Assembly (NCBI RefSeq): GCF_000069945.1
Contig: NC_010545.1
Span: 372,001 to 436,000 of the forward strand
Direction of reading: 5' to 3'
DNA length: 64,000 bases
Source of the DNA: Corynebacterium urealyticum DSM 7109
GTDB taxonomy: Bacteria > Actinomycetota > Actinomycetes > Mycobacteriales > Mycobacteriaceae
Of the stretch, positions 26,611-58,577 are shown one piece after another. The position numbers and the translations under genes are program-made. Each line of letters begins with the position of its first letter. Position 1 is the first letter of the stretch. The notes under the pieces are model-generated. The model saw only the letters and a program-made list of their open reading frames with translations. It was not told the DNA's origin and did not search any database.

Positions 26611-26641
26611 GCTATCCACGCCCCTTCTCAAAAGCTGCATA

Positions 26642-26660
26642 TTAGGTTATGCTAAGTTAA
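26642..26660. promoter_or_regulatory. DtxR-like iron box before the mbtH-ABC operon
   Basis: TTAGGTTATGCTAAGTTAA matches the DtxR consensus TTAGGTTAGCCTAACCTAA at 15 of 19 positions, with a perfect left arm. It lies 84 bases before the MbtH-like gene. Confidence 0.75.
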
Positions 26661-26743
26661 TTCACGCTTGCTGCACTTGTGCCACCACTTTGGCCAACGC
26701 AGCCCATAAACCCGTTATTTCCGCATCATGAGACAAGGAGCGC

Positions 26744-26974
26744 GTGTTGTCTAGCAACCCGTTTGATGACGAACAGGGCAGCTTCTTCGCCCTTATCAAC
26801 GACGAGGGACAGTACTCGTTGTGGCCTACGTTCGCCGCCGTGCCAGACGGATGGACCGTGGCTCTGGGAGACCCTTCCCGTGGCGTAGACGGCGGGGTAT
26901 CGCGGGACGAGGCGATGGAGTTCATCGACCGCGAGTGGACCACCTTGCAACCGGCAGGAAAGTCTCACGCTTAA
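26744..26974 (+). CDS. MbtH-like protein (NRPS adenylation partner)
   Basis: 76 residues from GTG 26744 (AAGGAG upstream; the adjacent TTG at 26747 is equally possible). The MbtH signature is complete: NPFDD near the start, N-D-E-G-Q-YSLWP, then VPDGWTVALG and ..DEAMEFIDREWTTLQP. MbtH proteins bind adenylation domains and are needed for their solubility or activity, so this one should serve the NRPS at 32111. The ABC gene begins immediately after its stop. In the coelichelin cluster of Streptomyces the equivalent is CchK. Confidence 0.93.
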   Translation: MLSSNPFDDEQGSFFALINDEGQYSLWPTFAAVPDGWTVALGDPSRGVDGGVSRDEAMEFIDREWTTLQPAGKSHA

Positions 26975-28792
26975 GTGAGTGCCGTACTTCCCACTGCTTC
27001 GCCTGGTGAGTCCGCTGCGGAGATTGGCCGCCTGCTCCGTCGCACCGCAACTCCAGCAATTAGTGCGGTGCTGTTCACTTTCGCCGGTGCCTTGCTCTCT
27101 CTGGTGCCCATTTATCTGCTGGCCAGCGTCATCGATGCGGTAGCCGCCGGTGACGGCAAGTCTGGCGTGCTGAAGGTGATTGTGTGGGCTGCCGTGGCGT
27201 GTGTTGGTACTGCCGTTGTCGCTGGCCTTGCGGAGGCGCTGACGGGTGTGACGATTGCCCAGGTAGTTGCGAAGTTGCGTGAGCGCGCCGTCGCCGCGGT
27301 GCTGAATCTGCCTTCCACCACGGTGGAGTCCCTGGGCCGGGGAGAGGTGCTGGGCCGAGTTGGTGCGGATGTCGCCGCGCTGGTGAGCAGTGCCCGCAAG
27401 TCGGTTCCATCGACCCTCAGCGCGCTGGTGATGGTCGTGGTGGCCAGCGCTGGAATAGCGGGGTTGGATTGGCGCCTCGCGTTGGCGGGGCTGTGCGGGA
27501 TTCCGTTCTATGCGCTGGGGTTGCGATGGTATCTTCCTCGTTCTGCCCCTTTGTATCGACGCCAACGCGAATTAGAAGCCGGTGTCATCGGTTCCTTGCA
27601 AGGTTCTATGGAGGGCATTCGTTCGGTTCGTTCGCATCGGCTGGTGGATAGCCGCCAAGGTCTCACCAGGCGCTACGCGCAGGCTTCGCGGGACGAATCA
27701 ATCGCTGCGTTTCGTGTGTTTTCCGGGCTGGTGGCGCGGGAGAACTTCGCGGAGTTCATGGGGTTGTCAGCCCTGTCTGTCGTAGGCTGGTTGCTCTTCC
27801 GCGAAGATGCGGTGACGGTGGGCGAGATCTCGGCAGCGTTGATTCTGTTCCACCGTCAGTTCGTGCCGATCGGCACGATTCTGTTCACCTTTGATGAACT
27901 GCAGCGCAGCGGGGCGGCCTTGGGGCGCATCGTGGGACTCATTCGCTTCGCGGGTGCGGATACGCCACAGCCGATTGATGACTACTCCTCGCATCGGCAG
28001 AGTCCAGCTGTAGAGGTCAAGGGCCTGAATTATCGGTACGAGGATGGCCCAGAGATCTTGCATGACTTGGCGTTCCACATCCCTGCGGGGTGCACGGTAT
28101 GCGTGGTCGGCGGATCGGGAGCTGGCAAGTCCACGGTTGCGGAAATTGTCTCTGGAACCCTCGAGATGGCAGAGCCGGGTGTGATCACCGTTGGGGGGTG
28201 CGACGTGGTGGGAATGAGTGCGCAAGAAAGAAGCTCGATCTTTTGCGTTGCCTCCCAGGAAAACTACGTCTTCGCGATGAGTTTGCGCGATAATCTCCTG
28301 CTGGCAGCCGAAGGTGCCAGCGACGCAGAAATATGGGATGCGCTGCGCCGAACCGGTGCGGAAGATTGGTGCACATCCTTGTCCCATGGCGACAAGCAGG
28401 GCTTAGACACAATGCTGGGCGAAGGGGGCCTGCACGTAGATGCGGTGGCGGCACAGCGTCTGGCGCTGGCCAGGGTGGCATTGTCTCGGGCTGGCGTCGT
28501 CATTCTTGACGAATCAACGGCCGAAGATGACGGTGACCTCGAGGAAACACAGCAATCACACGAGGCCTTTTCGATGTCCTTGGAGGACGCTGCCCGCGCG
28601 GCGATCCGCGGACGGACGGCGATGGTGATTGCGCACCGGCTCAGCCAAGCAACCTCCGCCGATAGCGTGGTGGTGATGGAGCGCGGGCGCGTGGTGGAAA
28701 CAGGTACGCACGAGGAGCTGGCAGCAAGAAACGGAACATATGCCGATATGTGGACCGCCTGGAATGAGCAGGGGAGGCAGGCGCGTGTCTGA
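26975..28792 (+). CDS. ABC exporter half 1 (TMD-NBD), degenerate signature motif
   Basis: 605 residues from GTG 26975, directly abutting the mbtH stop. Residues 20-310 hold about six membrane helices of the exporter type. The nucleotide-binding domain has Walker A GGSGAGKST near 380, a Q-loop (SQENYVFAMS), Walker B VVILDEST with its catalytic Glu and the H-loop AHRLS. The place of the LSGGQ signature reads GLHVDAVAAQRLALAR, so the signature is lost. The partner encoded next has the opposite defects, implying an obligate heterodimer. Inferred role: export of the siderophore, like CchG/CchI. An IrtAB-like import role is the main alternative. Confidence 0.85.
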   Translation: MSAVLPTASPGESAAEIGRLLRRTATPAISAVLFTFAGALLSLVPIYLLASVIDAVAAGDGKSGVLKVIVWAAVACVGTAVVAGLAEALTGVTIAQVVAKLRERAVAAVLNLPSTTVESLGRGEVLGRVGADVAALVSSARKSVPSTLSALVMVVVASAGIAGLDWRLALAGLCGIPFYALGLRWYLPRSAPLYRRQRELEAGVIGSLQGSMEGIRSVRSHRLVDSRQGLTRRYAQASRDESIAAFRVFSGLVARENFAEFMGLSALSVVGWLLFREDAVTVGEISAALILFHRQFVPIGTILFTFDELQRSGAALGRIVGLIRFAGADTPQPIDDYSSHRQSPAVEVKGLNYRYEDGPEILHDLAFHIPAGCTVCVVGGSGAGKSTVAEIVSGTLEMAEPGVITVGGCDVVGMSAQERSSIFCVASQENYVFAMSLRDNLLLAAEGASDAEIWDALRRTGAEDWCTSLSHGDKQGLDTMLGEGGLHVDAVAAQRLALARVALSRAGVVILDESTAEDDGDLEETQQSHEAFSMSLEDAARAAIRGRTAMVIAHRLSQATSADSVVVMERGRVVETGTHEELAARNGTYADMWTAWNEQGRQARV

Positions 28793-30512
28793 CAACAAGG
28801 TGGTGACGCTGCGCGGGCTGGTCAGAAAAAATTCTCGCGCGATGGCTCTGAGTGGCTTGTTGCTGAGCATCTACCACGTGGCAGAAGCCATGATTGCGGT
28901 GTTACTGGGATGGTTGGCGCACAGTCTTATCGCTAGCGAGAATGTGTGGCACCTGGTGGGTGGAATCGCAGCCTTAGGCGCTACGCTGGCGACGGTGTCT
29001 GTGAGCTGGCAGACAGGGTTCCGGATACTGCAGGCTACGTCGGCTCGGAACGTATGTGAATTGCGGGCAGGCATCACCTCGCAGGTGGTGAGCCATGGTG
29101 GGCATTCCGACGATGCGGACAGTCTGCCTCGCCAGGAATTGCCCACGGTGGTGGGTGAAGACGTGGTGCAGGCGGTAGACATCATCGAAGTGGTCCCGGT
29201 GGGGATCAGTGCGCTGGTGGGAGCCATTTTCTGCACGATTGTTCTGGCGCTGATTGATCTGCCACTGGGAGTGGTGGTGTTGGTGCTCAGCGCGGTGGTG
29301 TTGATAGTCCTGCACCGGCTGTCTCAGATCATTGAACGCCGCGCGGAGCGGCAACAAACTCTGCTCGCGCGAGTGACCGCGCGCATGACCGACATTCTGC
29401 AGGGGCTGCCGGTGATCTCGGGAGTGGCTGGCGCGCATCCGGCCTACCGTGGATATGCGCGTAAATCTGAAGAGGCGTGTGCGGATGCTCGGAAGCTCGC
29501 GTGGGTCAGCGGAGGTTATGAAGCCGTGGCGATGGGCAGCAATGTGCTGTTGCTGAGTGCGGTGGGCCTGTACGCGGGCTATCGAACCATTTCCGGCGAT
29601 GTGACGTTGGGGGAGTTGGTCACCGTGGTGGCGCTGTCACAATTTATCGCGGAGCCGATGCGGCAGTGCAGCAGAATGCCGCGCTTCATTGGATTGGCGA
29701 GGGCTTCCGTTCGGAGGCTGCAGCGCGTGGCGGAAGCTCAGCGGCTGCGTGAGGGGCAGGGCGTGCCATCTGCTCAGATTGGCACGCCTGCCATTTCCAT
29801 GCGCGGTGGAGACGGTGAGGCCGAAGGAGACGGCGAGGTCGAGGGATCAGAGCAGGCTTCCGTGGCGTTCGCAGAGGGGCGACTGACGGTGGTGCACTGT
29901 TCAGCCGCATGGGCAGATGCTCTGGTGGATGCGTTGGTCGCGGGGGAGTCGATGGAGCTTGGCTCCCTGACTAGGCCACAAACTCAACAACTGTGGATCC
30001 GGGGGCGCGATATTTGCGAGATCTCGGTAGACGATGTGCGTTCCGCTGTGCTTGCCGAGCCTCGGAAGCCGGCATTGTTTGGGGACACAGTGGGGCAGGC
30101 GGTGCTGCGGAGCTCTGGAGAGGGCAGGGCGGAGGATGCAGTAGACATTCTTAACGCCTTAGGGCTCGATGAACTGGCGCCGGGGGCGGCTCATTCAGCC
30201 GGGGTATTGGATCACGAGCTGACCGAAGGTGCGCGCAATCTTTCCGGTGGTCAGCGGCAGCGGCTGGGATTGGCACGAGCGCTACTGGCTGAGCCGGAGA
30301 TGTTGGTGATGGTTGATCCGGTCTCGTCAGTGGATTCAATGACGGGCATGAAAGTGGCGCGTGCGGTGAGAGATATTCGCCGCGGGCGTACCACGGTGGT
30401 CCTGTGTGTGGGGAGGGCCTTCCAGTCGGTAGCCGAGGACGTAGTTGATGTGAAGCCTCTAGCTGGGAGTTTGCGGACGCGGGGTGAGCAATTCCCGCTA
30501 GGGGGTTGTTGA
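28785..30512 (+). CDS. ABC exporter half 2 (TMD-NBD), degenerate Walker A and B
   Basis: 575 residues from GTG 28785, chosen for GGGGAGG seven bases upstream and an 8-base overlap with the previous gene. The membrane domain spans about residues 10-310. In the NBD the Walker A position reads VVHCSAAWADALVDAL with no GxxGxGKS/T. The signature NLSGGQRQRLGLARALL is perfect. Walker B is LVMVDPVSSVD, with Pro in place of the catalytic Glu, and the H-loop His is missing (VVLCVGRAF). It should pair with the protein encoded upstream so that only one ATP site, built from that protein's Walker motifs and this signature, is active. Same operon as mbtH. Confidence 0.85.
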   Translation: MSDNKVVTLRGLVRKNSRAMALSGLLLSIYHVAEAMIAVLLGWLAHSLIASENVWHLVGGIAALGATLATVSVSWQTGFRILQATSARNVCELRAGITSQVVSHGGHSDDADSLPRQELPTVVGEDVVQAVDIIEVVPVGISALVGAIFCTIVLALIDLPLGVVVLVLSAVVLIVLHRLSQIIERRAERQQTLLARVTARMTDILQGLPVISGVAGAHPAYRGYARKSEEACADARKLAWVSGGYEAVAMGSNVLLLSAVGLYAGYRTISGDVTLGELVTVVALSQFIAEPMRQCSRMPRFIGLARASVRRLQRVAEAQRLREGQGVPSAQIGTPAISMRGGDGEAEGDGEVEGSEQASVAFAEGRLTVVHCSAAWADALVDALVAGESMELGSLTRPQTQQLWIRGRDICEISVDDVRSAVLAEPRKPALFGDTVGQAVLRSSGEGRAEDAVDILNALGLDELAPGAAHSAGVLDHELTEGARNLSGGQRQRLGLARALLAEPEMLVMVDPVSSVDSMTGMKVARAVRDIRRGRTTVVLCVGRAFQSVAEDVVDVKPLAGSLRTRGEQFPLGGC

Positions 30513-30522
30513 GCAATAGAAG

Positions 30523-30541
30523 ATAGGTTAGCCTACCCTTT
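30523..30541. promoter_or_regulatory. DtxR-like iron box before the monooxygenase-NRPS operon
   Basis: ATAGGTTAGCCTACCCTTT matches the DtxR consensus at 15 of 19 positions, including the whole core AGGTTAGCCTA. A partial second copy (GCCTACCCTAAG) follows at 30547-30558. The boxes lie 50-70 bases before the start of the monooxygenase gene. Confidence 0.8.
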
Positions 30542-30591
30542 GCATTGCCTACCCTAAGAAGTTGGTTGGCGCATCCTACAGAGAGGCCATA

Positions 30592-32010
30592 GTGACCATC
30601 ATCGATCGTCAAGCTCAGACATCCGCAGAGCGCAGTACCCACGAAAATTCCGTCCGCGACATCGTCGGGATCGGCATCGGCCCCGGAAACCTCGGGCTCG
30701 CGGTAGCTATCGAAGAGCAAGCTCCAGAACTCGATGCACTCTTTGTGGAAGCCCGCCCGGAATTCAACTGGCACCCAGGCATGCTCCTCGAAGGATCCAA
30801 CATGCAGATCAGCTTCCTTAAAGACCTGGTTACGGTGCGCAATCCGCAGAGCCGCTTCAGCTTCATCAACTACTTGCATCACAGCGACCGCTTGATTGAT
30901 TTCATTAACCGCCAAACCTTCACCCCGGAACGCGTGGAATTCGCCGATTACCTCCGATGGATCGCGGATCACATCACCGTGGACACGCAGTACAACACCA
31001 CCGTGACGTCCATCGAGACGCTTCCGGAACCGGCCGCAGACGGAGCTCGTTTTGTGGTGCACGTCCGCAGGAAGTTAGGAAGCGGTGAGTCCGAAGGGCA
31101 GCGAGCTCAGCAGTCGGAGTCCATTCGCTGCCGCAACGTGGTGGTTGCCCGCGGTCTGGAAGCCAAGATGCCTGCGTGGGCAGAGGACAGCTCCTTGGAC
31201 ACCTCGCGCATCTTCCACAACATCGATTTGCTCCCGCGCACCAAGAAGCTGCTGAACAGTGGGTGGGATATCCGCCGAGCTTTGGTGATCGGCGCGGGCC
31301 AGTCCGCAGCCGAGGCCATCCGGTACTTCCACGATTGCCCGCATATCGATACCGTCACGGGCAGCTTGAACAGCTACGGCTTCATCCCCGCCGATGACAG
31401 CCCCTTCGCCAATCGGGTGTTCGACCCGGAGGCCGTTGATGACTTCTTCCATGCGCCCGATGCGATCCGCAACGAGCTGTTGATCCGCCACCGGTACACC
31501 AATTACGCCTGCGTGGAATCTGAGCTCCTCGATGAGCTCCACGACCGTCAGTATCGGGAAAGCGTCACCGGGCGTCAGCGGCTCGATATTCGCCGGACCA
31601 CGGAGGTGCTCGGTGCGCGTAATTGTTCCGACGGCAGCGTCGACGTGGACATTCGCCACCGAGTAACCGGAGACGTGGTGACAGAAAACTTTGACGTGGT
31701 GGTGTGCGCCACGGGCTTCCGATCTCGCGGTCTTGCGGGGATTCACGCTGATAGTCACGGCAGTGAAGAATTCACCGTCACTAGGGATTACGGCGCCGTG
31801 CTCAATGGCGAGCGCGTGCCAGGACTCTTCGTGCAGGGAGCAACTGAGGCCACGCATGGACTCGGTTCCACGTTGCTCTCCAACATCGCGACCCGCTCCG
31901 GGGAACTGGTGGAGGCCATCACGGGACAGCAACGCACGCATCGTGCGCCGGCGGATGAAGATCTCCGCTCCGAGCAACATCGGGATTCTTCGCACCTGAT
32001 CGCAGGCTGA
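30592..32010 (+). CDS. L-ornithine N5-monooxygenase (siderophore; CchB/PvdA/SidA family)
   Basis: 472 residues from GTG 30592 (GAGAGG upstream). The FAD-binding motif GIGIGPGN is at residues 26-33. FNWHPGMLLEGSNMQISFLKDLVTVRNPQSRFSFINYL is the family's conserved active-site block. The NADPH motif VIGAGQSAAEA lies near 232, and the C-terminal ATGF motif (CATGFRSRGL) is present. It hydroxylates the side-chain amine of free ornithine (or less likely lysine) before activation by the NRPS; the adenylation codes next door argue for ornithine. Probably cotranscribed with the NRPS, 100 bases downstream. Confidence 0.92.
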   Translation: MTIIDRQAQTSAERSTHENSVRDIVGIGIGPGNLGLAVAIEEQAPELDALFVEARPEFNWHPGMLLEGSNMQISFLKDLVTVRNPQSRFSFINYLHHSDRLIDFINRQTFTPERVEFADYLRWIADHITVDTQYNTTVTSIETLPEPAADGARFVVHVRRKLGSGESEGQRAQQSESIRCRNVVVARGLEAKMPAWAEDSSLDTSRIFHNIDLLPRTKKLLNSGWDIRRALVIGAGQSAAEAIRYFHDCPHIDTVTGSLNSYGFIPADDSPFANRVFDPEAVDDFFHAPDAIRNELLIRHRYTNYACVESELLDELHDRQYRESVTGRQRLDIRRTTEVLGARNCSDGSVDVDIRHRVTGDVVTENFDVVVCATGFRSRGLAGIHADSHGSEEFTVTRDYGAVLNGERVPGLFVQGATEATHGLGSTLLSNIATRSGELVEAITGQQRTHRAPADEDLRSEQHRDSSHLIAG

Positions 32011-32110
32011 TTTTCCCGAGCCGTGCTCCGCGCGAGGTTGGCTGACACCTAGCCCGACGTCCGCCATCCGCGTCTGATTCCCTGTTTCCCCATCAACCGA
32101 AAGGCTCTTT

Positions 32111-35100
32111 GTGCCCACCCGATCGTCTGCTCACACTCCGTTTTCCTCTGGCGATACGCTTGCTTCTCGAGATGGCGGCGCCGTCATCGGTCATGGCCGC
32201 AGTGAACAGGATCGGATCGCCCAGCAGCGCATATGGAATGACACGGATCAGGATCGCGATCGCCCGGACCTGATTAGCCTGCTCCTGCAGCATGCGCAGG
32301 AGACCCCGGATGCGCTCGCAGTGGTGGATGACCGGCACAGACTGACCTATGCGCAGCTCGTCGCCCATGCAACTGCTGTAGCGCGAAATTTGCGGGAACA
32401 CGGTATTGACGCTGGTCAGAGTGTGGGAATCTCCCTGCCGCGCAGCGCGGAGATGGTGGTGGGTATCGTCGCCACGTTGCTCGCCGGTGGCAGTTTTGTC
32501 CCGCTAGACCCCTCGTGGCCGCAGGCGCGCCGGGAATCCGTCACCCACGATGCCAGCCTGAGCTTCGTACTCACGCCGGACAACTGCGCGCTCACCGAAG
32601 ACGCGCTATTCGACCTCGATGCCACCCGCGAGCTGTTCACCCCGCCGTCCACGGACAGCGTTGCGTACGTCATCTTTACCTCTGGCAGCACCGGCCGCCC
32701 AAAGGGCGCAATGATCCGCCACGGTGCGATCGTGGAGCGCTTGCTCTGGCAGCGCGATCAGATCCTGTTCTTCGGCCGCGATGATGCCTCCCTGTTCAAG
32801 GCACCGCTGGCTTTTGATATCTCCATCAATGAGATCTTCCTGCCGCTGGTTTGCGGGGGCCGCGTAGTGGTGGCCGCGCCGGGCGTGGAGCAAGACCCCC
32901 AACGCTTGGCCCGCCTCATCCATCGCGAGGGCGTGACGTTTGCGTATCTGGTTTCGAGTGTTCTCGACGTCATGCTCAAACAGGCCGAAGGCACGAATCT
33001 ATTAGACAGCTTGCGGCATGTCTGGTGTGGCGGAGAGATGCTCACCCAGGCGCTGTTCCGTCGCTTTCGCCAGCAGCTGGCCATCCCGCTGTACCACGGG
33101 TACGGGCCAGCGGAAGCTACCATCGGTGTCTCCCACGTCATCTACCGTGACGACGAGGATCGCCTCAACACGAGCATCGGTGTGGCCAATCCCAACTGTC
33201 GGCTCTATGTGCTCGATGAGCACCTGCGGGTGGTTCCAGACCAAGAAATTGGTGAACTCTATGTGGCCGGATTCCTGCTGGCCAAGGGGTATATCAATGC
33301 CCCAGGACTCACGGCCAGCCGCTTTGTTGCGGATGTGTTTGCGTCGGACGGAACCCGGATGTACCGCACGGGAGACCTGGTGCGCCGGCACAACGACGGC
33401 TCGCTGGAATTCGTGGGGCGGGCCGATAATCAGGTGAAAATCCGTGGCATGCGTCTGGAGTTAGAGGACGTGGAATCTGCGCTGGTGGGACACCCAGATG
33501 TGGAGGCGGCGAGCGTGATTGCTCGGGAGGGGCGACTGCTGGGCTACGTGACGGTGACTGCGGGCCTCGTGGGTGCTGCGATCCGTAGTTGGTGTGCCGA
33601 GGTACTGCCCGAATACATGGTGCCCGCGATTATCACCGTCATGGATGAGTTGCCGCGGACGGCCAACGGAAAAGTGGATCGGAAGGCACTGCCGGAACCT
33701 GATTGGAGCTCGCTCACTGATGCCCCGGCCGATGCTGAACGTGACGGGGAAACCGTTGCTCTGCTCGCGGAGGCAATGGCTGAAGCATTGGGGGTTAGCG
33801 CGGTGGGTGCGGAGACGGACTTCTTCGATATCGGTGGCGATAGCCTGCGGGCCATCACCCTGGTCTCGGCTCTGGGACGGCGCGGGGTGGAGGTGAGTGT
33901 GGGAGATATTTTCTCTGCGCGCACTCCACAGCAACTGGCTCGGTGCGCCGAAGAGCGCGGAACCTTCGTGCAGGATCCAGACGATGAACCAACCGGTGAG
34001 GTGCAGTCGCTGCCGATTCTGCGCTGGTTCGATTCCATTACTGATCACGTGGACGGCTTCATTCAGTCCGTGGAGTTTTCAGTTCCAGAAGATGTGGATG
34101 CGCAGCTGGCCGGGCGAATGGTGGCTGACGTGCTGCAGGCGCACCCTGCACTGCGGGCCCGTGTGCAGCGGAATCCCTTGCGGCTGGAACTCCCGGAGGG
34201 TCCTGGCGAAGAAGCGGTGGCGATCCACCCCACCACGGACATCGCTGCGCTTTCTGAACTGCTGGATCCGGCAGTCGGAGTGGTGGTAGCGGCTGGGCTG
34301 GTGCCCGGAAGATTGCGCCTGGTGGTGCATCACCTGGTGGTCGATGGCGTGTCATGGAACATTATCGGCGAGGACCTCGCCGCGGCGTATCGCGGGGAAC
34401 AGCTCGCGCCGGAGCGGACGTCCCTGCGCCGATGGACGCAGCTGCTGCAACAGGCCGTTGATACTGGCGAATTCGCGGAGGATGCCAATAGTTCCCTGCC
34501 CCCATTGCCGAGTGCGGATGAACCTCTGCGGGACCCGCAGGTGCCAGCGCTTGCTGATAGTCCCGAGAAAGCGCCCACAGTCCGTGAGGAGCGCAGCGTG
34601 GTACATGAGGCATCAGTGCAGATCACGGACGAATTACTGGGTGCGGTGCCCCACGCTTTCCGCACGGGGGCGAATTCCGTATTGCTTACGGCATTGAGCG
34701 TGGCGTTGGCGCGTTGGCGTCGAAACAAACAAACATGGACCCTGGTGGAGATGGAGGGGCACGGCCGCGAAACCCGATTCGTACCCGGGCCACAGGGCAG
34801 GGAAGCGGACCTCTCACGCACCGTGGGCTGGTTCACCTGCCTATATCCCATGCTGATCGACCCCACCCGGGCGGCAGTGCAGGAGGCTTCCGCGGCGACC
34901 GAGGGCCACATCGCGCCGCTAGCGCTGGCACTCAATGCAGTGAAAGACCAGCTCGCGGCCATCCCCGGCAACGGCGTTCCTTACCAGGCCCACACCTGGT
35001 TGCATCAGTCCGCGAAGACCCCTCCGCAGGCACAGGTGCTGTTCAACTACTTGGGGCGCGTATCCGCAGGAGCACAAGATTTCGCTCCCGCGGGTTCCAC

Positions 35101-42967: not shown

Positions 42968-42969
42968 AT

Positions 42970-43974
42970 TCAGCCCAGCAATTCGGCGAGTGCCGGGATG
43001 ATCCCGTGGCGCCACATCGCAGGGTCGTGGCCACCGGGCGTGCGGTGATTGGTGGTGGGAAAGCCGCGGCGTGTCAGGGCATCGGCCACTGCATCCACGT
43101 GTCGTTGCATGGGCGGCTCTTCTGCACCGCACGTCAGTACGATGCGTGCCAGACCGGAGCCACTGTGAGCCGCAGGATTTTCGAGTGAGGGGCCAGTGAG
43201 CTGTGCGGCAATGTCGCCTCCTGCGGGCCCGTCCGAGAGCGTGTCCGCGAGCTCTGCAGAACGGTCAGCGGACCACCAGACGGCAGGGGACTGGGCGATG
43301 GCTCCTTTGATTGCAGGCGTGGTTTCGGTGGAAGCCGTAAGAGCTGCGCGCAGGGCGGAGAGACCGCCGAAGCTTTGCCCCACCAGGACTATGTGGCTGC
43401 TGTTGATGATCGGCGGAAGCTCGGTGGCCAGTGCGCTGGCGAATGTTTGGGAGGTGTACTCCTCGCTGCGGTCTTTGGCTGCCGGCAGGAAGACGCGGTT
43501 GATCTGGGGGATAAGCCCTGCCGTGACTGCCCGGTCCAGTGCGCCCGTGAGGTCATGCAGATGGATCCAGTCATCGCCATCCAAAAACACCACGGTGGTA
43601 TCCGCACCGCGGTCATCGAGGCGCGCGGTGCAGCGCCTGCCGAATACCTTCCGGTCGATGGACAGGCGTGCGCCGGGCAAGTCCGCGATGACTTCTGGGG
43701 AGCGAGGCGGCCAGAGTGTCTGGTCCACAGAATCGCCGCTCAATAGGCTCGCCTGTGGGCCTGCGCCGTGTGCGTTATGTGGATCGGGATATTTCAGCTC
43801 GCCGGATTGAAAGCTATAGGTCACTGCTGAGTGCGCCGGGATGCGCACATCGACGGTGGACATCGATTCGGTGAGCTCGACGTTCGAGCGGTAGGGGTCC
43901 GGGAAAACGAGGGCTTCCGCATCCGCGGGCACCGAGATTCGGTGAAGGGTGGTCACGTCCGGGGAGTCTGGCAT
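42970..43974 (-). CDS. siderophore esterase (Fes/IroE/CchJ-like alpha/beta hydrolase)
   Basis: 334 residues, ATG at 43974. The esterase nucleophile motif is GQSFGG with Ser201, and the catalytic His is probably His316 in PGGHDPAMWRHGI. The N-terminal part (VFPDPYRSNVE) and VVFLDGDDWIHLHDL follow the enterobactin-esterase layout. No signal peptide is seen, so it should be cytoplasmic. It is convergent with the NRPS (stops 2 bases apart) and divergent from the formyltransferase, sharing an iron box. In the coelichelin pathway a related protein (CchJ) is thought to free the peptide from the thioesterase-less NRPS. Alternatively it hydrolyses the ferric siderophore to release iron. Confidence 0.82.
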   Translation of the reverse strand: MPDSPDVTTLHRISVPADAEALVFPDPYRSNVELTESMSTVDVRIPAHSAVTYSFQSGELKYPDPHNAHGAGPQASLLSGDSVDQTLWPPRSPEVIADLPGARLSIDRKVFGRRCTARLDDRGADTTVVFLDGDDWIHLHDLTGALDRAVTAGLIPQINRVFLPAAKDRSEEYTSQTFASALATELPPIINSSHIVLVGQSFGGLSALRAALTASTETTPAIKGAIAQSPAVWWSADRSAELADTLSDGPAGGDIAAQLTGPSLENPAAHSGSGLARIVLTCGAEEPPMQRHVDAVADALTRRGFPTTNHRTPGGHDPAMWRHGIIPALAELLG

Positions 43975-43996
43975 GAAAATTGCGCCACTTTCATCA

Positions 43997-44026
43997 TTGA
44001 CTACATAGGTAAACCTAAGCTAACAT
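43997..44026 (+). promoter_or_regulatory. iron-regulated promoter of the formyltransferase gene, probably leaderless
   Basis: TTGACT (43997-44002) and TAACAT (44021-44026), spacer 18. The ATG lies 7 bases after the -10 and has no Shine-Dalgarno, so transcription probably starts at or next to the start codon. The spacer is filled by a DtxR-like box. Confidence 0.6.
44005..44023. promoter_or_regulatory. DtxR-like iron box shared by esterase and formyltransferase genes
   Basis: ATAGGTAAACCTAAGCTAA matches the consensus at 15 of 19 positions and lies in the 59-base divergent gap, so one site could control both directions. Confidence 0.78.
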
Positions 44027-44033
44027 CCCCTGC

Positions 44034-44978
44034 ATGCGAGTTGCTGTTTTCGGCTATCAGTCGTGGGGACACCGGACGTTGTCTGCGGTCATCAATGCTG
44101 GTCATGAAGTAGTTTTGGTAGTTACGCACCCTGCCAGCGATCACCCTTATGAGCAAATGTGGGCAGACTCCGTTGAGGAGCTCGCCAGCGAACATGAGCT
44201 CCAGGTGTGTGTCACTGAGCGCGTGGGTCAAGACGTCATTGAGGCGTTGCGCGATGCTGCACCAGACATCATCGTGGCCAACAATTGGCGAACCTGGCTT
44301 CCTCCCGAGGTTTTCAGCCTGGCCAAGCACGGCGCATTGAATGTCCACGATGGTCTCCTGCCCGAGTACGCCGGATTTTCGCCCATCCTGTGGGCGCTGT
44401 TGAACCGGGAAACTCACGTGGGCGTCACTGTGCACGAGATGGATGAAGTGCTGGACGGCGGACCCATCGTTGCCCAGCGCGCGATCCCCGTGGGTCCGCA
44501 GGACACCACCACGGATCTCGTGGCCAAGACCATCGACCTCATCGAGCCCCTCGTGGAACGCGCATTGAGTGACGTCGCCCAAGGCACCGCCACTGCGCAA
44601 CCTCAAGATCCCACCCGCGCTACGTACTTCCACAAGCGCGGCGAGCAGGAATCTCGCATAGATTTCACCCAACCTGCGGAAGATATCGCCTTGCTGGTCA
44701 GGGCGCAGTCCGACCCGTACCCCAATGCTTACTTTGAATTCCGAGGCCAGCGCGTCCGCGTGCTTTCCGCGCACGTCTCGCTGGGCCGCTTCGGCGGAAC
44801 CCCCGGCCGAGTCACCATCCCTCACGAGGGAGGAATCGCGGTGGTCTGTGGATCGCCCCGTGCCAACGTGCCGGCGCCGGCGATTGTTCTGGATCGTGTT
44901 CGTCTCGACGACAACTCGGAACTGACCGCCACCGAATTCTTTGGACATAGGGCTGGATATATCCAACCAAAGGTTTGA
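44034..44978 (+). CDS. N5-hydroxyornithine formyltransferase (CchA-like, Fmt family)
   Basis: 314 residues, ATG at 44034. The catalytic trio of the formyltransferase fold is visible: Asn103 and His105 in LNVHDGLLPEYAGFSPILWAL, and Asp141 in MDEVLDGGPIV. The C-terminal domain (YFHKRGEQESRIDFTQPAEDIALLVRAQSDPYPNAYFEFRGQRVRV) matches the Fmt/ArnA C-terminal region. It transfers a formyl group from 10-formyl-tetrahydrofolate to N5-hydroxyornithine, making the substrate of NRPS module 1. Its place in an iron-regulated NRPS locus rules against the housekeeping Met-tRNA formyltransferase. Probably cotranscribed with the binding protein gene 65 bases downstream. Confidence 0.9.
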   Translation: MRVAVFGYQSWGHRTLSAVINAGHEVVLVVTHPASDHPYEQMWADSVEELASEHELQVCVTERVGQDVIEALRDAAPDIIVANNWRTWLPPEVFSLAKHGALNVHDGLLPEYAGFSPILWALLNRETHVGVTVHEMDEVLDGGPIVAQRAIPVGPQDTTTDLVAKTIDLIEPLVERALSDVAQGTATAQPQDPTRATYFHKRGEQESRIDFTQPAEDIALLVRAQSDPYPNAYFEFRGQRVRVLSAHVSLGRFGGTPGRVTIPHEGGIAVVCGSPRANVPAPAIVLDRVRLDDNSELTATEFFGHRAGYIQPKV

Positions 44979-45043
44979 CCTTTCCCTTTTGTGTACGGGC
45001 CACACCTCGCGCGGAAATCCGTCACCAGTAACAACGGAGAAAA

Positions 45044-46060
45044 ATGACACTCAAGAAGATTCTCGTTAGCACCGCTGCTGTGCTGACCTTGGGCGCGGCA
45101 CTGACCGCTTGCTCGACTGATGACCAGTCCGGAAATTCCGGGGACTCCCAGGCAGTCAACGCCGAGCAGGGCGCATTCCCCACCACCATCGAGCACCGCT
45201 ACGGCTCCACCGAAATCAAGGAAGCCCCGCAGCGCGTGGTCTCCTTGGGCTACACGGATCAGGACGCACTGCTGGCGCTGGGAGTTACTCCTGTCTCCGT
45301 GAAGTACTGGGACGGAATGACCCCGGATGGTCAGGCTGCGGGCAACTGGTCCAATGACAAGATCGAGGGCGACACTCCTCGGATCGACAAGGACACAGAA
45401 GTCAACGCGGAAGCCATCGCCAAGGACAATCCAGACCTCATCGTGGCCGTGTACTCGGACATCGATGAAGACACGTACAAGAAGCTGTCTGAGATCGCCC
45501 CTGTCGTCGTACAAAAGGGCGAATACGAAGAACTACAGCAACCATGGGACGTGACCACGGAAGAGATCGGGCAGGCCGTGGGCAAGCCTGAAGAGGCAAA
45601 GCGCCAGGTGGAGCAGGTCAAGGAGAAGTTCGCAGAGCTCAAGGGCCGCCACCCAGAATGGGCCGAAAAGGAACTCGGCGTGGCCACTGTCTCCGACGAG
45701 AGCCTGGCTGTCTTTGCCGAGGGCGATCCGCGTAGCCGCTTCTTCACCGAGCTGGGATTCAAGATCAACCCGGCCTACGCGGGCATCACCAAGGACAAGT
45801 TCTACGGTGAGGTCTCCAAGGAAAACGCAGACCAGATCAACTCTGACGTGCTGGTGTGGGATCAACTGTCTTACTCTCCGAAGCAGAGCAAGGCTTCTGT
45901 GACCGAGGATCCGATCGTGGGCAAGCTGCCCGCCGTGAAGGACGGACACAGTGTCTACCTGGAAGGCGACCTGGAAAAGGCCTTCGGATGGCAGACCGTG
46001 CTGAGCCTGAACTACCTGCTGGACAAGATCGAGCAGCCGTTGGCAGACGCCACGAAGTAG
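45044..46060 (+). CDS. siderophore-binding lipoprotein of ABC importer (FhuD/FecB type)
   Basis: 338 residues, ATG at 45044 after CAACGGAGAA. A lipoprotein signal MTLKKILVSTAAVLTLGAALTAC with lipobox LTAC is followed by a Ser/Asp-rich linker. The periplasmic-binding-protein-2 (class III) fold is indicated by PQRVVSLGYTDQDALLALGVTPVSV and PDLIVAVYSDIDEDTYKKLSEIAPVV. It should capture the ferric siderophore at the outer face of the membrane and pass it to the two permeases encoded at 48223-50435. In Streptomyces the equivalent coelichelin binding protein is CchF. Confidence 0.92.
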   Translation: MTLKKILVSTAAVLTLGAALTACSTDDQSGNSGDSQAVNAEQGAFPTTIEHRYGSTEIKEAPQRVVSLGYTDQDALLALGVTPVSVKYWDGMTPDGQAAGNWSNDKIEGDTPRIDKDTEVNAEAIAKDNPDLIVAVYSDIDEDTYKKLSEIAPVVVQKGEYEELQQPWDVTTEEIGQAVGKPEEAKRQVEQVKEKFAELKGRHPEWAEKELGVATVSDESLAVFAEGDPRSRFFTELGFKINPAYAGITKDKFYGEVSKENADQINSDVLVWDQLSYSPKQSKASVTEDPIVGKLPAVKDGHSVYLEGDLEKAFGWQTVLSLNYLLDKIEQPLADATK

Positions 46061-46076
46061 TCTGAATCAACCGCCG

Positions 46077-46109
46077 AACCGCCCCGCATGAACGTGCTAG
46101 GGCGGTTTT
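46077..46109 (+). terminator. terminator after the binding-protein gene
   Basis: AACCGCCC (46077-46084) pairs with GGGCGGTT (46100-46107), with inner GCA/TGC pairing, followed by TTGCTGTT. It starts 16 bases after the stop. Confidence 0.8.
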
Positions 46110-46157
46110 GCTGTTGCTGGCTAGGGGACGGGCACTCACGGGGATAACGGATGCACG

Positions 46158-46694
46158 CTAGGGGCGAGCCTTGCCGACGAACCAATAAGGGCACCACAGG
46201 ATGTTGTCCTTGTTGAGCTGCCAAGTCTTGATGGCGTGGGAGCGCACCACCTTGCAGAAATCCCCCTCCCCGGCGACCCACACATAGTCCACGTCTGGGT
46301 GGGGCTTGTGCTGTCGATTGCGCGAGGACTCAACGTCAATGTTGGCGAGATGCTCGGCGATGGCCTGCGCATAACCGTCAGAAGGTGCGGAGATCCGGGT
46401 GAGGCTGCTTAGACGGTTGCGCCAATCTTCCAGGTGGGGCTCTGAATCGGAATCGGTACTGGTGACCGCGATGACGTGCGTGGAAGCGAGCTGTTCGGGA
46501 TAGAGCGTGGCGAGGTACTCTAGGATCGCGCGCATGGAAGGCAGGGAGGTGGGATCTGCCACCAGTAGTTGTGTGCGGTGCTCGCGATGCCACAGGCCTT
46601 GGCAAGTCCACAAGCCAGCAGGGTCGCCCGGCTGTGCGGACAAACACCACGAGAGCCCTGGGCCGGAGGTGGAGTGGACATCTTCCGCAGACAC
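46158..46694 (-). CDS. truncated siderophore-interacting protein, C-terminal half only (probable pseudogene)
   Basis: 178 residues from GTG 46694 with no Shine-Dalgarno. The sequence (GPGLSWCLSAQ..GLW, LLVADPTSLPSMRAILEY, VWVAGEGDFCKVVRSHAIKTWQL, WCPYWFVGKARP) is the NAD(P)H-binding half of the siderophore-interacting ferric reductase family. It is closely similar to residues ~145-309 of the intact protein at 55085. The N-terminal FAD-binding domain is missing. Similarity continues in frame a few codons upstream of the GTG (LFLPHG against IVTHG), up to a TAG at 46725-46727, showing that the 5' end was cut off at the dedA-side junction. Without the FAD domain it should not reduce iron. Confidence 0.78.
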   Translation of the reverse strand: MSAEDVHSTSGPGLSWCLSAQPGDPAGLWTCQGLWHREHRTQLLVADPTSLPSMRAILEYLATLYPEQLASTHVIAVTSTDSDSEPHLEDWRNRLSSLTRISAPSDGYAQAIAEHLANIDVESSRNRQHKPHPDVDYVWVAGEGDFCKVVRSHAIKTWQLNKDNILWCPYWFVGKARP

Positions 46695-46740
46695 CCCGTG
46701 CGGTAAGAATAGACCAGTTGTTTTCTACAAGGGATTCCCT

Positions 46741-47379
46741 GTGCACTTAAGCGACCTCATGGACGCCACCACCCTGCTCCAGAACTTTGGCGGCTGGGCG
46801 CTCGGCGGCATTGCGCTGATTATCTTTATTGAATCCGGCGTGCTCTTCCCGTTCCTCCCCGGCGATTCCATGCTGGTCACCGCGGCAATCTTGCGCGATC
46901 AGCTGGGCTTGAACGTTCCGATTCTGGTGGGCGTGGCCATCGTCGCGGCGTTCTTGGGCGACCAGGTAGGTTTCTGGCTCGGCCACCGCTTTGGCCGCAA
47001 GTTGTTTAAGCCCGACGCCAAGATCCTCATAACCGAGCACCTCGAACAAGCCGAGGCTTTCTTCCTGAAGTACGGGCCGTTGGCTCTGGTACTGGGGCGC
47101 TTCATCCCGATCGTGCGTACCTACATTCCCGTGGCCGCTGGTACCGCGGAGATGCCGTACAAGAAGTTCGTGGGATGGAACGTCACGGGTGCAGTGCTGT
47201 GGATTGTCAGCATGGTCGGCATTGGCGTGCTGCTGGGGGATATCCCGGGCATTGCGGATCGCATCGACATGATCGCCATCGTCATCGTGCTGGTGTCTGT
47301 GACTCCGGTGGTGATTTCCGCGATGATCAACTGGCGGAAGTCCAAGAAGACTCCCGCCCAGGAGCTGATGGAGGACTAA
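46741..47379 (+). CDS. DedA-family membrane protein
   Basis: 212 residues from GTG 46741, chosen for AAGGGA eight bases upstream; the longer open frame has no similarity before this point. The DedA pattern is clear: FIESGVLFPFLPGDSML, then FLGDQVGFWLGHRFGRKLF, then GPLALVLGRFIPIVRTYIPVAAGTAEMPYKKFVGWNVTGAVLW with the conserved Arg residues. Four to five membrane helices. DedA proteins are lipid-transport/membrane-homeostasis proteins (several act as undecaprenyl-phosphate or phosphatidyl flippases). No evident link to iron; it looks like a bystander within the island. Confidence 0.88.
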   Translation: MHLSDLMDATTLLQNFGGWALGGIALIIFIESGVLFPFLPGDSMLVTAAILRDQLGLNVPILVGVAIVAAFLGDQVGFWLGHRFGRKLFKPDAKILITEHLEQAEAFFLKYGPLALVLGRFIPIVRTYIPVAAGTAEMPYKKFVGWNVTGAVLWIVSMVGIGVLLGDIPGIADRIDMIAIVIVLVSVTPVVISAMINWRKSKKTPAQELMED

Positions 47380-47382
47380 GCC

Positions 47383-47407
47383 CTGATCGTCACTTGGGGA
47401 CGATCAG
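47383..47407. promoter_or_regulatory. perfect hairpin at the dedA / importer ATPase convergence
   Basis: CTGATCGTC (47383-47391) pairs with GACGATCAG (47399-47407), loop of seven. It overlaps the last codons of the minus-strand ATPase gene and lies 4 bases past the dedA-family stop. Lacking a T run it may be only a weak bidirectional terminator. Confidence 0.45.
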
Positions 47408-48172
47408 CGGACCGCCGGTGACAGGATCCTCGATGACTAGCGCGTTGAGGGCAAACGCCTCGAGCAGTAGCTCTGGGGTAATGACCTCGCTGGGACGCCC
47501 GGTGGCGAGGACCTGTCCATCCTTCATCACCACGAGATTATCGCTGTAGCGTACAGCCAAGTTGAGATCGTGCAGCACCATCACCACAGTCCGATCCAGC
47601 TCTCGGCGTAGACGCTGCACCAGCTCCAAAATCTCTACCGACGTGGCCAGATCCAGGTAGGTGGTGGGCTCGTCCAGGAACAGGATGTCCGTGTTCTGCG
47701 CAAGAACCATGGAGATCCACACACGCTGCCGCTGCCCTCCGGACAGAGAATCCAGGGTGCGCTCCGCCAGCCCCATCGAGCCAGTCATTTCCAGCGCCTT
47801 GTGCACCTCGGCTTCGTCCGTGGACGACCACTGACGGATCCACGATTGGTGTGGGTGCCGACCGCGCGAGACGAGATCAGCCACGTTGAGTCCCTCCGGG
47901 GCGGTAGGGGTTTGTTGCAGCACGCTGATGGTCCGTGCGAGGTCCTTGCGCCTGATGGATGAGATATCGGCGCCGTCTAACAGCACTTCGCCCTCATTCG
48001 CCGGAAGGAGACGAGACATGGCTCGCAACAACGTGGATTTGCCGCAGCCATTGGGGCCGATGATTGTGGTGATCTGCCCGCGAGGAAAGTCCACGTCCAA
48101 GCCTTCGATGACCGTCCGGTCGCCGTAGCCCACGGCGAGGCCGCGTGCGCTCATGCTGTGCTTCTGAGTCAT
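47390..48172 (-). CDS. iron-siderophore ABC importer, ATP-binding protein (FecE type)
   Basis: 260 residues from ATG 48172, preceded by AAGAAGGA. An upstream in-frame ATG at 48226 overlaps the permease stop (ATGA) and would add 18 residues, but has a weaker ribosome site. Walker A GPNGCGKST, Q-loop LQQTPTAPEG, signature LSGGQRQRVW, Walker B ILFLDEPTTYLDL and H-loop VLHDLNLA are all intact, as in FecE/FhuC/FepC proteins. It powers uptake of the ferric siderophore through the two permeases encoded upstream. Confidence 0.93.
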   Translation of the reverse strand: MTQKHSMSARGLAVGYGDRTVIEGLDVDFPRGQITTIIGPNGCGKSTLLRAMSRLLPANEGEVLLDGADISSIRRKDLARTISVLQQTPTAPEGLNVADLVSRGRHPHQSWIRQWSSTDEAEVHKALEMTGSMGLAERTLDSLSGGQRQRVWISMVLAQNTDILFLDEPTTYLDLATSVEILELVQRLRRELDRTVVMVLHDLNLAVRYSDNLVVMKDGQVLATGRPSEVITPELLLEAFALNALVIEDPVTGGPLIVPK

Positions 48173-48222
48173 GTGTCCTTCTTTGTTCGCGGCACTGCTA
48201 ACTTCCAGGGTGGGATCTTTTC

Positions 48223-49317
48223 TCATGCCGTGGTTGACCTATTCCGTTGGACCAGCAAATAAATAAGGAACGCACCGCCGATTGCCGAGGTGAGAATGCC
48301 CACCGGCAGCTCTACGGGCAGAAGAGTTTGGGTGCTGATATCTGCCAGCAGGAGTAGCGCAGCGCCGGTCAGCGCAGAGGCCAGAAGCGGTGGTGCAGAG
48401 CAGTTGCACAAGCGCAGCGCCACCTGTGGGGCCACGAAGGCGACGAACCCGATGGGGCCAGCGGCCGAGACCGCCACTGCTGCCAAAGCCACGGCAGCGG
48501 CGAGCAGAAGCACCTGCACACCCTGGACGTTTTGTCCCAAAGCCCGTGCAGTATCCGAGCCCAGCAAGGTGGCTAAAAGTTGGTGACCAATCCAGGCCAG
48601 CAGCGGTGTAAACACCAACACAACAATGGCGATGGGCCACATCTTGGACCAGTCCGCAGTGCTCAGGGAGCCAGTCAGCCAGAACTGCGCGGCCGCGGCA
48701 TCGCGCAACTCCGTGCGGATCATCAGGAAGTTGATATACGAGGTCAACAGAGCAGAGATGATGATGCCGAACAGCACTAGCCGGAAGGAATCAGTCGATC
48801 TCCTCCACGCCAGAGCCCACATCACCGTTGCGGTGACAGCCGCACCAAGCACCGCGGCCAAGGGAATGCCGATGCTGCTGAGCCAGCCGAGGAAACCACC
48901 AGCGCCACCACCCAGAGTGATGACGGTGACCGCGGCCGCGGACGCGCCCGTAGTGAAGCCCAAGATATCCGGGCTGGCCAGCGCATTGCGAGTCACGGAC
49001 TGAGTGAGGGCTCCGGATAATCCCAGCGCACAGCCCACCAGAATGGCCGTCAGCGCACGAGGCATGCGCCAATCCAAAACCACCAGACGCTCAATGCGGG
49101 TGCCCTGGCCGGTGAACAGCACCTCCAGCACACGAGCCGGGGACACAGGATAGTCACCCAGGCCGATGGAGACCGCCGCTAGCAAGACGATCGCCACGAG
49201 CAGCAATAGAGACACCGTCAACGCGCGAGGGCGCCAGACCACAGAAAATGAGCCCACGCGGAATGGCGGGCGCCCAGGGATAGTGGAAGAGGTAGGGCGG
49301 GCAAGGAGGGAACTCAT
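48223..49317 (-). CDS. iron-siderophore ABC importer, FecCD-type permease 2
   Basis: 364 residues, ATG at 49317. About nine to ten membrane helices. Family motifs are RMPRALTAILVGCALGLSGALTQSVTRNALASPDILGFTTGASA and the coupling-helix region AGPIGFVAFVAPQVALRLC (usually GxIxFVGLxxPHxxR; here PQ for PH). It forms the channel with the permease encoded just upstream, whose stop overlaps this start by one base. Confidence 0.92.
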   Translation of the reverse strand: MSSLLARPTSSTIPGRPPFRVGSFSVVWRPRALTVSLLLLVAIVLLAAVSIGLGDYPVSPARVLEVLFTGQGTRIERLVVLDWRMPRALTAILVGCALGLSGALTQSVTRNALASPDILGFTTGASAAAVTVITLGGGAGGFLGWLSSIGIPLAAVLGAAVTATVMWALAWRRSTDSFRLVLFGIIISALLTSYINFLMIRTELRDAAAAQFWLTGSLSTADWSKMWPIAIVVLVFTPLLAWIGHQLLATLLGSDTARALGQNVQGVQVLLLAAAVALAAVAVSAAGPIGFVAFVAPQVALRLCNCSAPPLLASALTGAALLLLADISTQTLLPVELPVGILTSAIGGAFLIYLLVQRNRSTTA

Positions 49318-50435
49318 TAAATGGCCACCACCCGGCGTCGATAAATAAGGGCGATGAAGAACGGCGCGCCCACGAACGCGAGGATGATGCCTACTTGCAA
49401 CTCGCCCGGACGAGCGATCAGACGGCCCACCACGTCTGCGAACAGCATCATCACCGCACCCGTCAGGGCAGAGTAAGGGAGAATCCAGCGGTAATCAGGG
49501 CCCGTGATGGCGCGCACGAGGTGCGGGACCACCAGGCCGATGAAGGTGATGGGGCCGGCGGCAGCTGTCGCGGCACCGGCCAGCAGTGCGATCAGAGCCA
49601 TGCCAATCAGGCGGGCGCGCTGGGTGTTGATGCCCAGTCCGGAGGCGATGTCATCGCCCAGATTCAGGAGGTTTAGCTGCGGTGCCGTGATGAACGCCAG
49701 CAGGAGGCCCACCAGGATAAACGGCAGCACGCCGTAGAACACGGTGAGATCCCGGCCCGCGATGGAGCCGACGGTCCAGAAGCGCATGCGATCCAGATTG
49801 GCATCGTCAGTGAGGATAAAACCGCTGATGATGGCGCTGAGGACCGCGGACAAAGCCGCGCCGCCGAGGACCAGCGTCATTGGATTGGCCTGTCCTCCTC
49901 CTATGGACGCCAAACTAAACACCAACGCAGTAGCAGCGATGGCCCCACCGAACGCCCACATGCTGGTAGCCCACACGGACGTCACCCCCAGCAAGGAGAA
50001 GCTGGCAACCACGGCCAGGGACGCACCGTAGTTGATGCCGAGAATGCCCGTGTCCGCGAGAGGGTTGCGCGTGTGCCCTTGGATCAATGCACCGGAGGCG
50101 CCAAGGGCAGCACCGGCGACTAGGCCCAACAGGGTGCGGGGAATGCGGAGCTCGACGATCACGCGCTGATCCACATTCAGCCCCTCCGCGTGGCCGAACG
50201 CCGTGCCGAGATCGCGGAACACGGCGGACACTTCTCCAAAAGGGATCTGCCGTGATCCAAACACGATGCTGGCAACGATGCTGGCGAGCAATAGGAGGAA
50301 AAGGACGCCGAGGCCGACGAGGCGACGCGGGATTTTACCTGATGGAGCGCTGGCAGAAGCGTCCGCAGTAGCGTCCGCGCGAGACCCCAGGTGTGATTGA
50401 GAAGGGGATTGCGCATGCGGGGTAGAGATAGCCAT
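49317..50435 (-). CDS. iron-siderophore ABC importer, FecCD-type permease 1
   Basis: 372 residues, ATG at 50435, with GGAGGG upstream. After a Ser/Ala-rich cytoplasmic head, about ten helices follow. Conserved segments RIPRTLLGLVAGAALGASGALIQGHTRNPLADTGILGINYGAS and GPITFIGLVVPHLVRAITGPDYR (the loop that docks the ATPase) are present. First gene of the importer operon, with a DtxR-like box overlapping its promoter. In the coelichelin locus this set corresponds to CchC/CchD/CchE. Confidence 0.92.
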   Translation of the reverse strand: MAISTPHAQSPSQSHLGSRADATADASASAPSGKIPRRLVGLGVLFLLLLASIVASIVFGSRQIPFGEVSAVFRDLGTAFGHAEGLNVDQRVIVELRIPRTLLGLVAGAALGASGALIQGHTRNPLADTGILGINYGASLAVVASFSLLGVTSVWATSMWAFGGAIAATALVFSLASIGGGQANPMTLVLGGAALSAVLSAIISGFILTDDANLDRMRFWTVGSIAGRDLTVFYGVLPFILVGLLLAFITAPQLNLLNLGDDIASGLGINTQRARLIGMALIALLAGAATAAAGPITFIGLVVPHLVRAITGPDYRWILPYSALTGAVMMLFADVVGRLIARPGELQVGIILAFVGAPFFIALIYRRRVVAI

Positions 50436-50482
50436 GCATCCCTCCTTGACGCGTGAAAGTACATGATCTTAACGGGAGCAAG

Positions 50483-50511
50483 CTTATATGAGCAAGGTAA
50501 GCCTAATCAAA
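50483..50511 (-). promoter_or_regulatory. importer operon promoter with DtxR-like box
   Basis: On the minus strand TTGATT (positions 50510-50505) and TATAAG (50488-50483) are 16 bases apart. The sequence CAAGGTAAGCCTAATCAAA at 50493-50511 matches the DtxR consensus at 14 of 19 positions and covers the -35 and spacer. Confidence 0.7.
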
Positions 50512-50690
50512 GTACTACAAGGAGGGATTGTGGAGCTGTGCAGGTGAGTGTGTGAGCCAGCAGGTGCGGCTAGTGAGGTCGGTCGGCCCTGAATGGCGCC
50601 GACCCTACACCTCAGCTCTATGCTTCTGAGCAGGGATTTGGACATGTTTTAGCTGGTTGCTAGGCTAGTCAGGTCTTGCCGTAGGTGAGG

Positions 50691-57790: not shown

Positions 57791-57792
57791 GG

Positions 57793-58374: not shown

Positions 58375-58399
58375 TTTCTAGTCTTCTGTAGCTTTCTGG

Positions 58400-58433: not shown

Positions 58434-58577
58434 TATCTGGGGGAGCGGTATTCGCGGAACAAGGTGATATGTCATCGACAGGGGTGGGGTTTCGTCGCTA
58501 GGCTGGGAATCATTCTGCATTTATCAGCATCCCGGTGTTTCCGTGCCGGAGGTGCGAAGAAAAGCAAAGGAGCAAAA

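Follow-up and report, generated by a model that had tools for sequence, protein, structure and literature searches.

Intact coelichelin-type siderophore gene cluster in Corynebacterium urealyticum DSM 7109, probably spread from a ribosomal-protein operon

The window analysed here is a stretch of 64,000 nucleotides from Corynebacterium urealyticum DSM 7109 (NC_010545.1, positions 372001-436000 of a single-contig genome of 2,369,219 bp). At 26627..50690 it contains a unit of 24,064 bp, common to several Corynebacterium species, which we hold with good confidence to be an intact coelichelin-type siderophore system that is probably iron-repressed. Counterparts of all eleven cch genes were present in this unit, and the best reading of the predicted product is coelichelin or a close analogue. 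The limits of the unit were obtained from blastn comparison with carriers having unrelated flanks and from the junctions. Genes in the window were called from open frames together with Pfam and NCBIfam scans, and every gene named in the initial annotation, which was made from the letters alone, was found in its place.

The non-ribosomal peptide synthetase (NRPS), the CchH counterpart, occupied 32111..42967 on the plus strand and was 3618 residues long. It showed three adenylation (A), three thiolation (T) and four condensation or epimerisation (C/E) domains in the order A-T-E-C-A-T-E-C-A-T. The domain positions and the E motifs (HHLVVDG in E1, HHAVIDS in E2, and EGHGR in both) bore out the layout first proposed from manual reading. 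Pocket codes were extracted by alignment and gave letters identical to the hand-read ones, namely DINYWGGIGK for A1 (32282..33694), DFWSIGMVHK for A2 (36818..38290) and DMENLGLINK for A3 (41216..42697), all on the plus strand. We take these codes to indicate N5-formyl-N5-hydroxyornithine, threonine and N5-hydroxyornithine, respectively, which are therefore the predicted substrates. A literature text search with the literal code DINYWGGIGK returned no match. The C2 domain (39815..41143, plus strand) carried the motif YHLVLVDGWS, in which Leu2698 (codon 40202-40204) replaces the catalytic His.

When 394 genomes of the class were searched, 15 of them, the own genome included, matched at 1e-180. 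Five genomes of one genus, Streptomyces-like in genome size, formed the coelichelin comparison set. All five encoded a trimodular NRPS of 3632-3652 residues with about 41% identity over its length. The A1 and A3 codes were equal to those of all five, and the A2 code DFWSIGMVHK was matched by DFWNIGMVHK in three and DFWNVGMVHK in two of them. In three of the five genomes all eleven counterparts were located within one stretch; the other two showed no formyltransferase or MbtH gene in the DNA stretch examined. The order in those three was formyltransferase, monooxygenase, two permeases, ATPase, binding protein, exporter, NRPS, exporter, esterase and MbtH, presumably that of cchA-K. The Corynebacterium unit shares eleven gene counterparts with the coelichelin cluster cchA-K of S. 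coelicolor and S. ambofaciens, and it shares the trimodular layout, the A1 and A3 codes and the His-less C2 motif with the Streptomyces-like synthetases. It differs in gene order, in one or two A2 residues and in the level of NRPS identity, and it has in addition a DedA gene and a fragment of a siderophore-interacting protein (SIP). The resemblance to the coelichelin gene set and layout pointed out in the initial annotation was supported by gene content, NRPS layout, A codes and iron boxes.

The remaining counterparts were distributed on both sides of the NRPS. Upstream, on the plus strand, an MbtH-like protein with a GTG start (CchK counterpart, 26744..26974, PF03621) preceded two ATP-binding cassette (ABC) exporter halves and the L-ornithine N5-monooxygenase. 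The CchG-type exporter half (26975..28792, PF00664/PF00005) showed 42-43% identity to five Streptomyces-like orthologues, and the CchI-type half (28740..30512) showed 32-34%. The latter had no Walker A pattern in any of the nine aligned proteins (four corynebacterial, five Streptomyces-like), and the exporter is therefore probably a heterodimer with a single active ATP site. The monooxygenase (CchB counterpart, 30562..32010) matched PF13434 with 325.9 bits and also matched solved ornithine and lysine monooxygenases. Downstream of the NRPS a Fes-like siderophore esterase (CchJ counterpart, 42970..43974, minus strand, PF00756) showed 33-37% identity to the five orthologues. A formyltransferase (CchA counterpart, 44034..44978, plus strand, PF00551/PF02911) was 52-53% identical to three orthologues, and a ferric-siderophore binding lipoprotein (CchF counterpart, 45044..46060, plus strand, PF01497) was 32-36% identical to five. 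The FecE-type ATPase (CchE counterpart, 47390..48226) showed 64-68% identity to five orthologues and was encoded on the minus strand with two FecCD permeases, the counterparts of CchD (48223..49317) and CchC (49317..50435). In the whole genome one PF01648 phosphopantetheinyl transferase was detected, Sfp-like by eye.

Iron boxes were searched over the 64-kb window with up to three mismatches to TWAGGTWAGSCTWACCTWA, which we take to be the DtxR-type consensus, and 20 first-order Markov sequences served as controls. Four sites were obtained, each at a cluster promoter, against a control mean of 0 per window. All four lay on the plus strand with three mismatches: at the promoter of the mbtH/exporter operon (26642..26660), upstream of the monooxygenase-NRPS genes (30523..30541), between esterase and formyltransferase (44005..44023) and at the permease operon promoter (50493..50511). 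Two more sites with four mismatches were located away from the cluster, at 56023 and 61739. With the stricter pattern TTAGGTTAGGCTAACCTAA, also at up to three mismatches, only the first box (26642) of the four was recovered. The cluster had been described as bracketed by iron boxes; the boxes are real and sit at promoters, but their role goes beyond bracketing, as two of the four are internal to the cluster. Because of these two internal boxes the cluster would probably consist of four iron-controlled operons. All four boxes were kept in G184, in G032 and, with other letters, in G090, and three boxes reached the same cutoff in C. dentalis. Operator-like sites of the kind expected for an iron-regulated coelichelin-type cluster are accordingly present as predicted elements, and their number equals the four DmdR1 sites of cch given in the available part of PMC12161575.

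The first 1500 NRPS residues were searched in 242 Corynebacterium genomes (own genome counted) with a cutoff of 1e-150. Thirteen genomes matched: ten at 99-100% identity, followed by G037 (C. dentalis) at 95%, G090 at 76% and G021 at 73% over part of the sequence. The protein cluster to which this NRPS belongs has 560 member sequences. Carriers with named records are Corynebacterium sp. HMSC27B11, C. kefirresidentii, C. jeikeium Cj47444 and C. dentalis. The NRPS open frame was complete in nine of the ten genomes at 99% identity or more. In the draft genome of Corynebacterium sp. HMSC27B11 (G158) the NRPS match was broken between residues 874 and 1171, which may be an assembly fault. This tenth carrier had an rpoC 98% identical to that of the window and a left flank in common with it.

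Eight divergent carriers (G184, G081, G223, G032, G150, G238, G086 and G082) showed 99.2-99.9% DNA identity over the unit versus 79-88% for rpoC, both compared with the window. With the identity of the unit so far above that of rpoC, the comparison demonstrates recent horizontal transfer into the lineage of the window genome, and simple vertical inheritance is ruled out by the same values. The left end of the shared DNA was at 26627 in all seven carriers whose examined DNA reaches it; the G086 contig starts inside the unit and its match ends with the DNA stretch examined. The right end was at 50690 in six carriers and at 50491 in G081. Beyond these ends the flanks of the divergent carriers were unlike those of the window. 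An IS256-family transposase (50731..52092, plus strand, NF033543) adjoins the unit in the window. IS256-related genes were also observed beside the unit in G081, G223 and G238; in G184 such genes lay about 5 kb off, and no IS256-related transposase was found in the examined flanks of G032, G150 and G082. Among 72,556 PLSDB plasmids searched by megablast with the unit, no plasmid carrier was detected; three records were returned, and their best matches covered only 53-54 bases of the NRPS gene. Against C. dentalis, the ratio of non-synonymous to synonymous substitution (dN/dS) was 0.02-0.46 over ten genes, and by this measure the cluster is under purifying selection over the longer comparison.

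The system would work as follows. When iron is short, DtxR would leave the four operator-like sites. The monooxygenase would make N5-hydroxyornithine and the formyltransferase would convert part of it to N5-formyl-N5-hydroxyornithine. The NRPS with MbtH would load formyl-hydroxyornithine, threonine and hydroxyornithine, as the A codes suggest, epimerise the first two residues and then condense them. C2 would most likely acylate the free N5-hydroxylamine of hydroxyornithine, giving the third hydroxamate, and a further formyl-hydroxyornithine would be added iteratively, as in coelichelin. The two ABC halves would export the product, the lipoprotein-FecCD-FecE importer would retrieve the ferric siderophore, and the esterase together with a nearby SIP reductase may release the iron. 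Coelichelin is taken here to contain two formyl-hydroxyornithines. In contrast, the available part of PMC9854754 describes coelichelin with two threonines and names cchA as the monooxygenase and cchB as the formylating enzyme. The name coelichelin occurs in the available part of PMC11078359 in a reference title only.

Several observations weigh against an intact coelichelin-type system. NRPS identity to the Streptomyces-like orthologues is only about 41%, and the A2 code is off by one residue from three of the five and by two from the others. The SIP inside the unit is only a fragment, and the more distant relative G021 showed a single box at the same cutoff. Siderophore-negative corynebacteria were recorded in a nasal survey (available part of PMC11296517), among strains that may or may not have carried the cluster. 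The first two observations would also be expected if the NRPS made a related tris-hydroxamate other than coelichelin, such as one in which serine replaces threonine or the fourth residue is missing, since the A2 code reads DFWSIGMVHK instead of DFWN(I/V)GMVHK. This explanation is unlikely: the A2 pocket keeps nine of ten residues compared with three orthologues and eight of ten compared with two, A1 and A3 are identical in all five, and the same unusual C2 motif is present along with the esterase and the other counterparts.

It is less likely again that the cluster is a transferred passenger, unexpressed or non-functional in corynebacteria. The recent transfer, the broken NRPS frame of G158 (a possible assembly fault) and the siderophore-negative corynebacteria of the one nasal survey, which may or may not be carriers (PMC11296517, in part), would fit such a state; the complete NRPS frames in nine of the ten genomes at 99% identity or more, the purifying selection relative to C. 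dentalis and the four iron boxes argue against it. DINYWG and DMENLG modules also occur in other NRPS lines, so another type of hydroxyornithine siderophore such as erythrochelin was considered as well. It is already disfavoured and very improbable, as both the gene set and the three-module layout found here agree with coelichelin, and G359, which we assume to be erythrochelin-like, has DVSHTSLVDK as its second code and a longer open frame. An intact coelichelin-type system is the preferred reading, and it would bear on siderophore use in the nose. In the available part of PMC11296517, siderophore production among Corynebacterium isolates was seen for C. propinquum only, and the other corynebacteria looked like siderophore consumers rather than makers. 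With a near-identical coelichelin-type system, recently spread between species, present in 10 of the 242 Corynebacterium genomes, it is likely that a siderophore is shared in that niche.

Ribosomal-protein genes bear on the likely source of the unit. The window carries Pfam-confirmed genes for the ribosomal proteins S17 (rpsQ), L14 (rplN), L24 (rplX), L5 (rplE), S8 (rpsH), L6 (rplF), L18 and S5. These S10-spc genes are split, with 30.6 kb between rpsQ and rplN (26498-57107) and 3.4 kb between rplE and rpsH (58374-61761). The unit starts 128 bp past rpsQ, rplN-rplX-rplE lie at 57107-58374 and rpsH is at 61761; the unit itself contains no extra ribosomal gene. In C. dentalis the cluster was found in two blocks, split around rplN-rplX-rplE. 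Block 1, from mbtH to a full-length SIP, was located between rpsQ and rplN, and block 2, dedA-fecE-fecD-fecD, between rplE and rpsH. A second, distant siderophore importer set (26-49% identity) was also observed in C. dentalis, between rpsQ and the cluster, at 3990-7965 of the joined C. dentalis stretch.

Ribosomal relics were found in several of the other carriers. In G184 the blocks were joined; the rplE that separates DedA from the SIP fragment there was 98.2% identical to C. dentalis rplE, versus 81% for the native rplE of G184; this carrier is a possible intermediate of block fusion. In G032, G150, G238, G086 and G082 an rpsH copy lay after the fused blocks; it shared 99.0% identity with C. 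dentalis rpsH, and 0 of 399 positions differed among the four relic copies compared. All five carriers had another rpsH at a different place, with 80-83% identity in the three for which it was measured, and in G150 and G086 the relic stopped inside rplF at the same point. G081 and G223 had one rpsH and one rplE each, so the relic was not kept by every carrier. The extra rpsH is apparently a ribosomal gene carried along by the mobile unit, and because the relics resemble C. dentalis genes, the unit probably originated in a ribosomal operon like that of C. dentalis. In the simplest history, the ribosomal operon of an ancestor resembling C. dentalis would have contained two blocks, the intervening genes would have been lost, and the fused unit would have spread with ribosomal hitchhikers; we infer the direction of transfer. 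A C. dentalis relative could instead have been the donor, given that the cluster differs from that of C. dentalis by about 4-6% in DNA. The relics would be a readable record of the source of the mobile cluster and of two blocks becoming one.

The C2 motif aligned without gaps to solved C domains (bacitracin synthetase 9rde and PvdL). The same His-to-Leu change was present in every coelichelin-type orthologue aligned, by which damage peculiar to one strain is ruled out. C motifs were then counted in 953 C-A pairs grouped by A code (DMENLG, DINYWG or others), in a sample biased towards this family, as its proteins were drawn from searches with this NRPS or this monooxygenase. The second His of HHxxxDG was missing before 202 of 212 DMENLG (N5-hydroxyornithine) A domains, 0 of 52 DINYWG domains (predicted formyl-blocked N5) and 14 of 689 others. 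In eight of these 202, an HH pair was present one position upstream. The 14 comprised eight hydroxyornithine-like DMD codes, the G021 orthologue (code unread), two gaps and three doubtful domains. Reduction of a 584-pair set at 60% identity to 173 representatives left 19/20, 0/14 and 6/139 without the second His, respectively. All 21 HL, HF, QF or HV representatives formed one clade with a support of 0.945; this test excluded four doubtful leaves, which had NI, DI, DM or a gap. Since the His-less domains form a single clade, one loss of the second His is probable and Fisher values on the pair counts overstate the evidence. Repeated independent loss is unsupported, as all 21 representatives fall in that clade. 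The clade has its own near-invariant residues that are uncommon outside it, among them an Arg in 21/21, which suggests a maintained subtype instead of decay.

We propose, tentatively and with slightly more doubt than conviction, that the C domains serving hydroxyornithine are a distinct subtype whose acylation target is the side-chain hydroxylamine rather than the alpha-amine and which dispenses with the second His. The hydroxylamine is unprotonated and strongly nucleophilic at cell pH and would need no general base; a formyl-blocked N5 leaves the alpha-amine alone free, and the His would therefore be kept. An N5 linkage of this kind is present in coelichelin and erythrochelin. NRPSs that we take to be of the erythrochelin and scabichelin types likewise had a C domain without the second His before the hydroxyornithine A domain, but differed from the Corynebacterium NRPS in module number and second-residue codes. 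The ten of 212 hydroxyornithine C domains that keep HH count against the linkage rule. Eight of them come from a single line type (five Pseudonocardia, one Patulibacter and two others) with three hydroxyornithine-type modules, where they precede the final module, which has an E domain after it, and they would fit alpha-acylation at that module; the remaining two are cut-off Nocardia brasiliensis open frames. A hydroxyornithine-module search outside Actinobacteria returned 874 records, all below 60% identity. If true, the proposal would explain the internal hydroxamate bond in coelichelin-, erythrochelin- and scabichelin-type lines and make the linkage readable from sequence, with better structure prediction for actinobacterial siderophores. 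If confirmed, it would also bear on how a three-module synthetase builds a hydroxamate-linked tetrapeptide. No description of such a subtype was found among openly licensed (CC) PMC papers searched by title and abstract start.

A coelichelin-type cluster is not new to the genus. The initial annotation did not know of one in corynebacteria; such clusters are already reported in the available parts of PMC10486106 and PMC10210951. The former notes a coelichelin-like cluster in the C. striatum pangenome and gives, in that account, the likeness to coelichelin without gene-level analysis or product. The available part of PMC10210951 describes a conserved NRPS-siderophore family, GCF-50, in skin corynebacteria, with recent horizontal transfer and mobile-element flanks, and credits C. 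jeikeium K411 (Tauch 2005) for an NRPS-siderophore cluster. Near-identical NRPSs in divergent Corynebacterium species and mobile-element flanks were likewise found here, and a record named C. jeikeium, strain Cj47444, carries the unit. We infer that GCF-50 is the same unit; the word coelichelin does not appear in the main text of PMC10210951. The available part of PMC12188740 also lists C. kefirresidentii among several species with putative siderophore clusters. The ribosomal-operon origin and the His-less C-domain pattern look new; the available part of PMC10210951 does not mention a ribosomal-operon origin, and no literature search was aimed at ribosomal relics.

Two genes inside the cluster were absent from the gene list of the initial annotation. 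One encodes a DedA/VTT membrane protein (46741..47379, plus strand, PF09335; start codon checked), and the other is the truncated SIP (46158..46694, minus strand), which matched PF04954 only. The SIP was full length at the same place in C. dentalis, and the truncated form was kept in G184 and gone from seven of the eight divergent 99% carriers. A full-length SIP with PF08021 and PF04954 was located outside the unit at 55085..56014 (minus strand) and is a possible candidate for the iron-release reductase.

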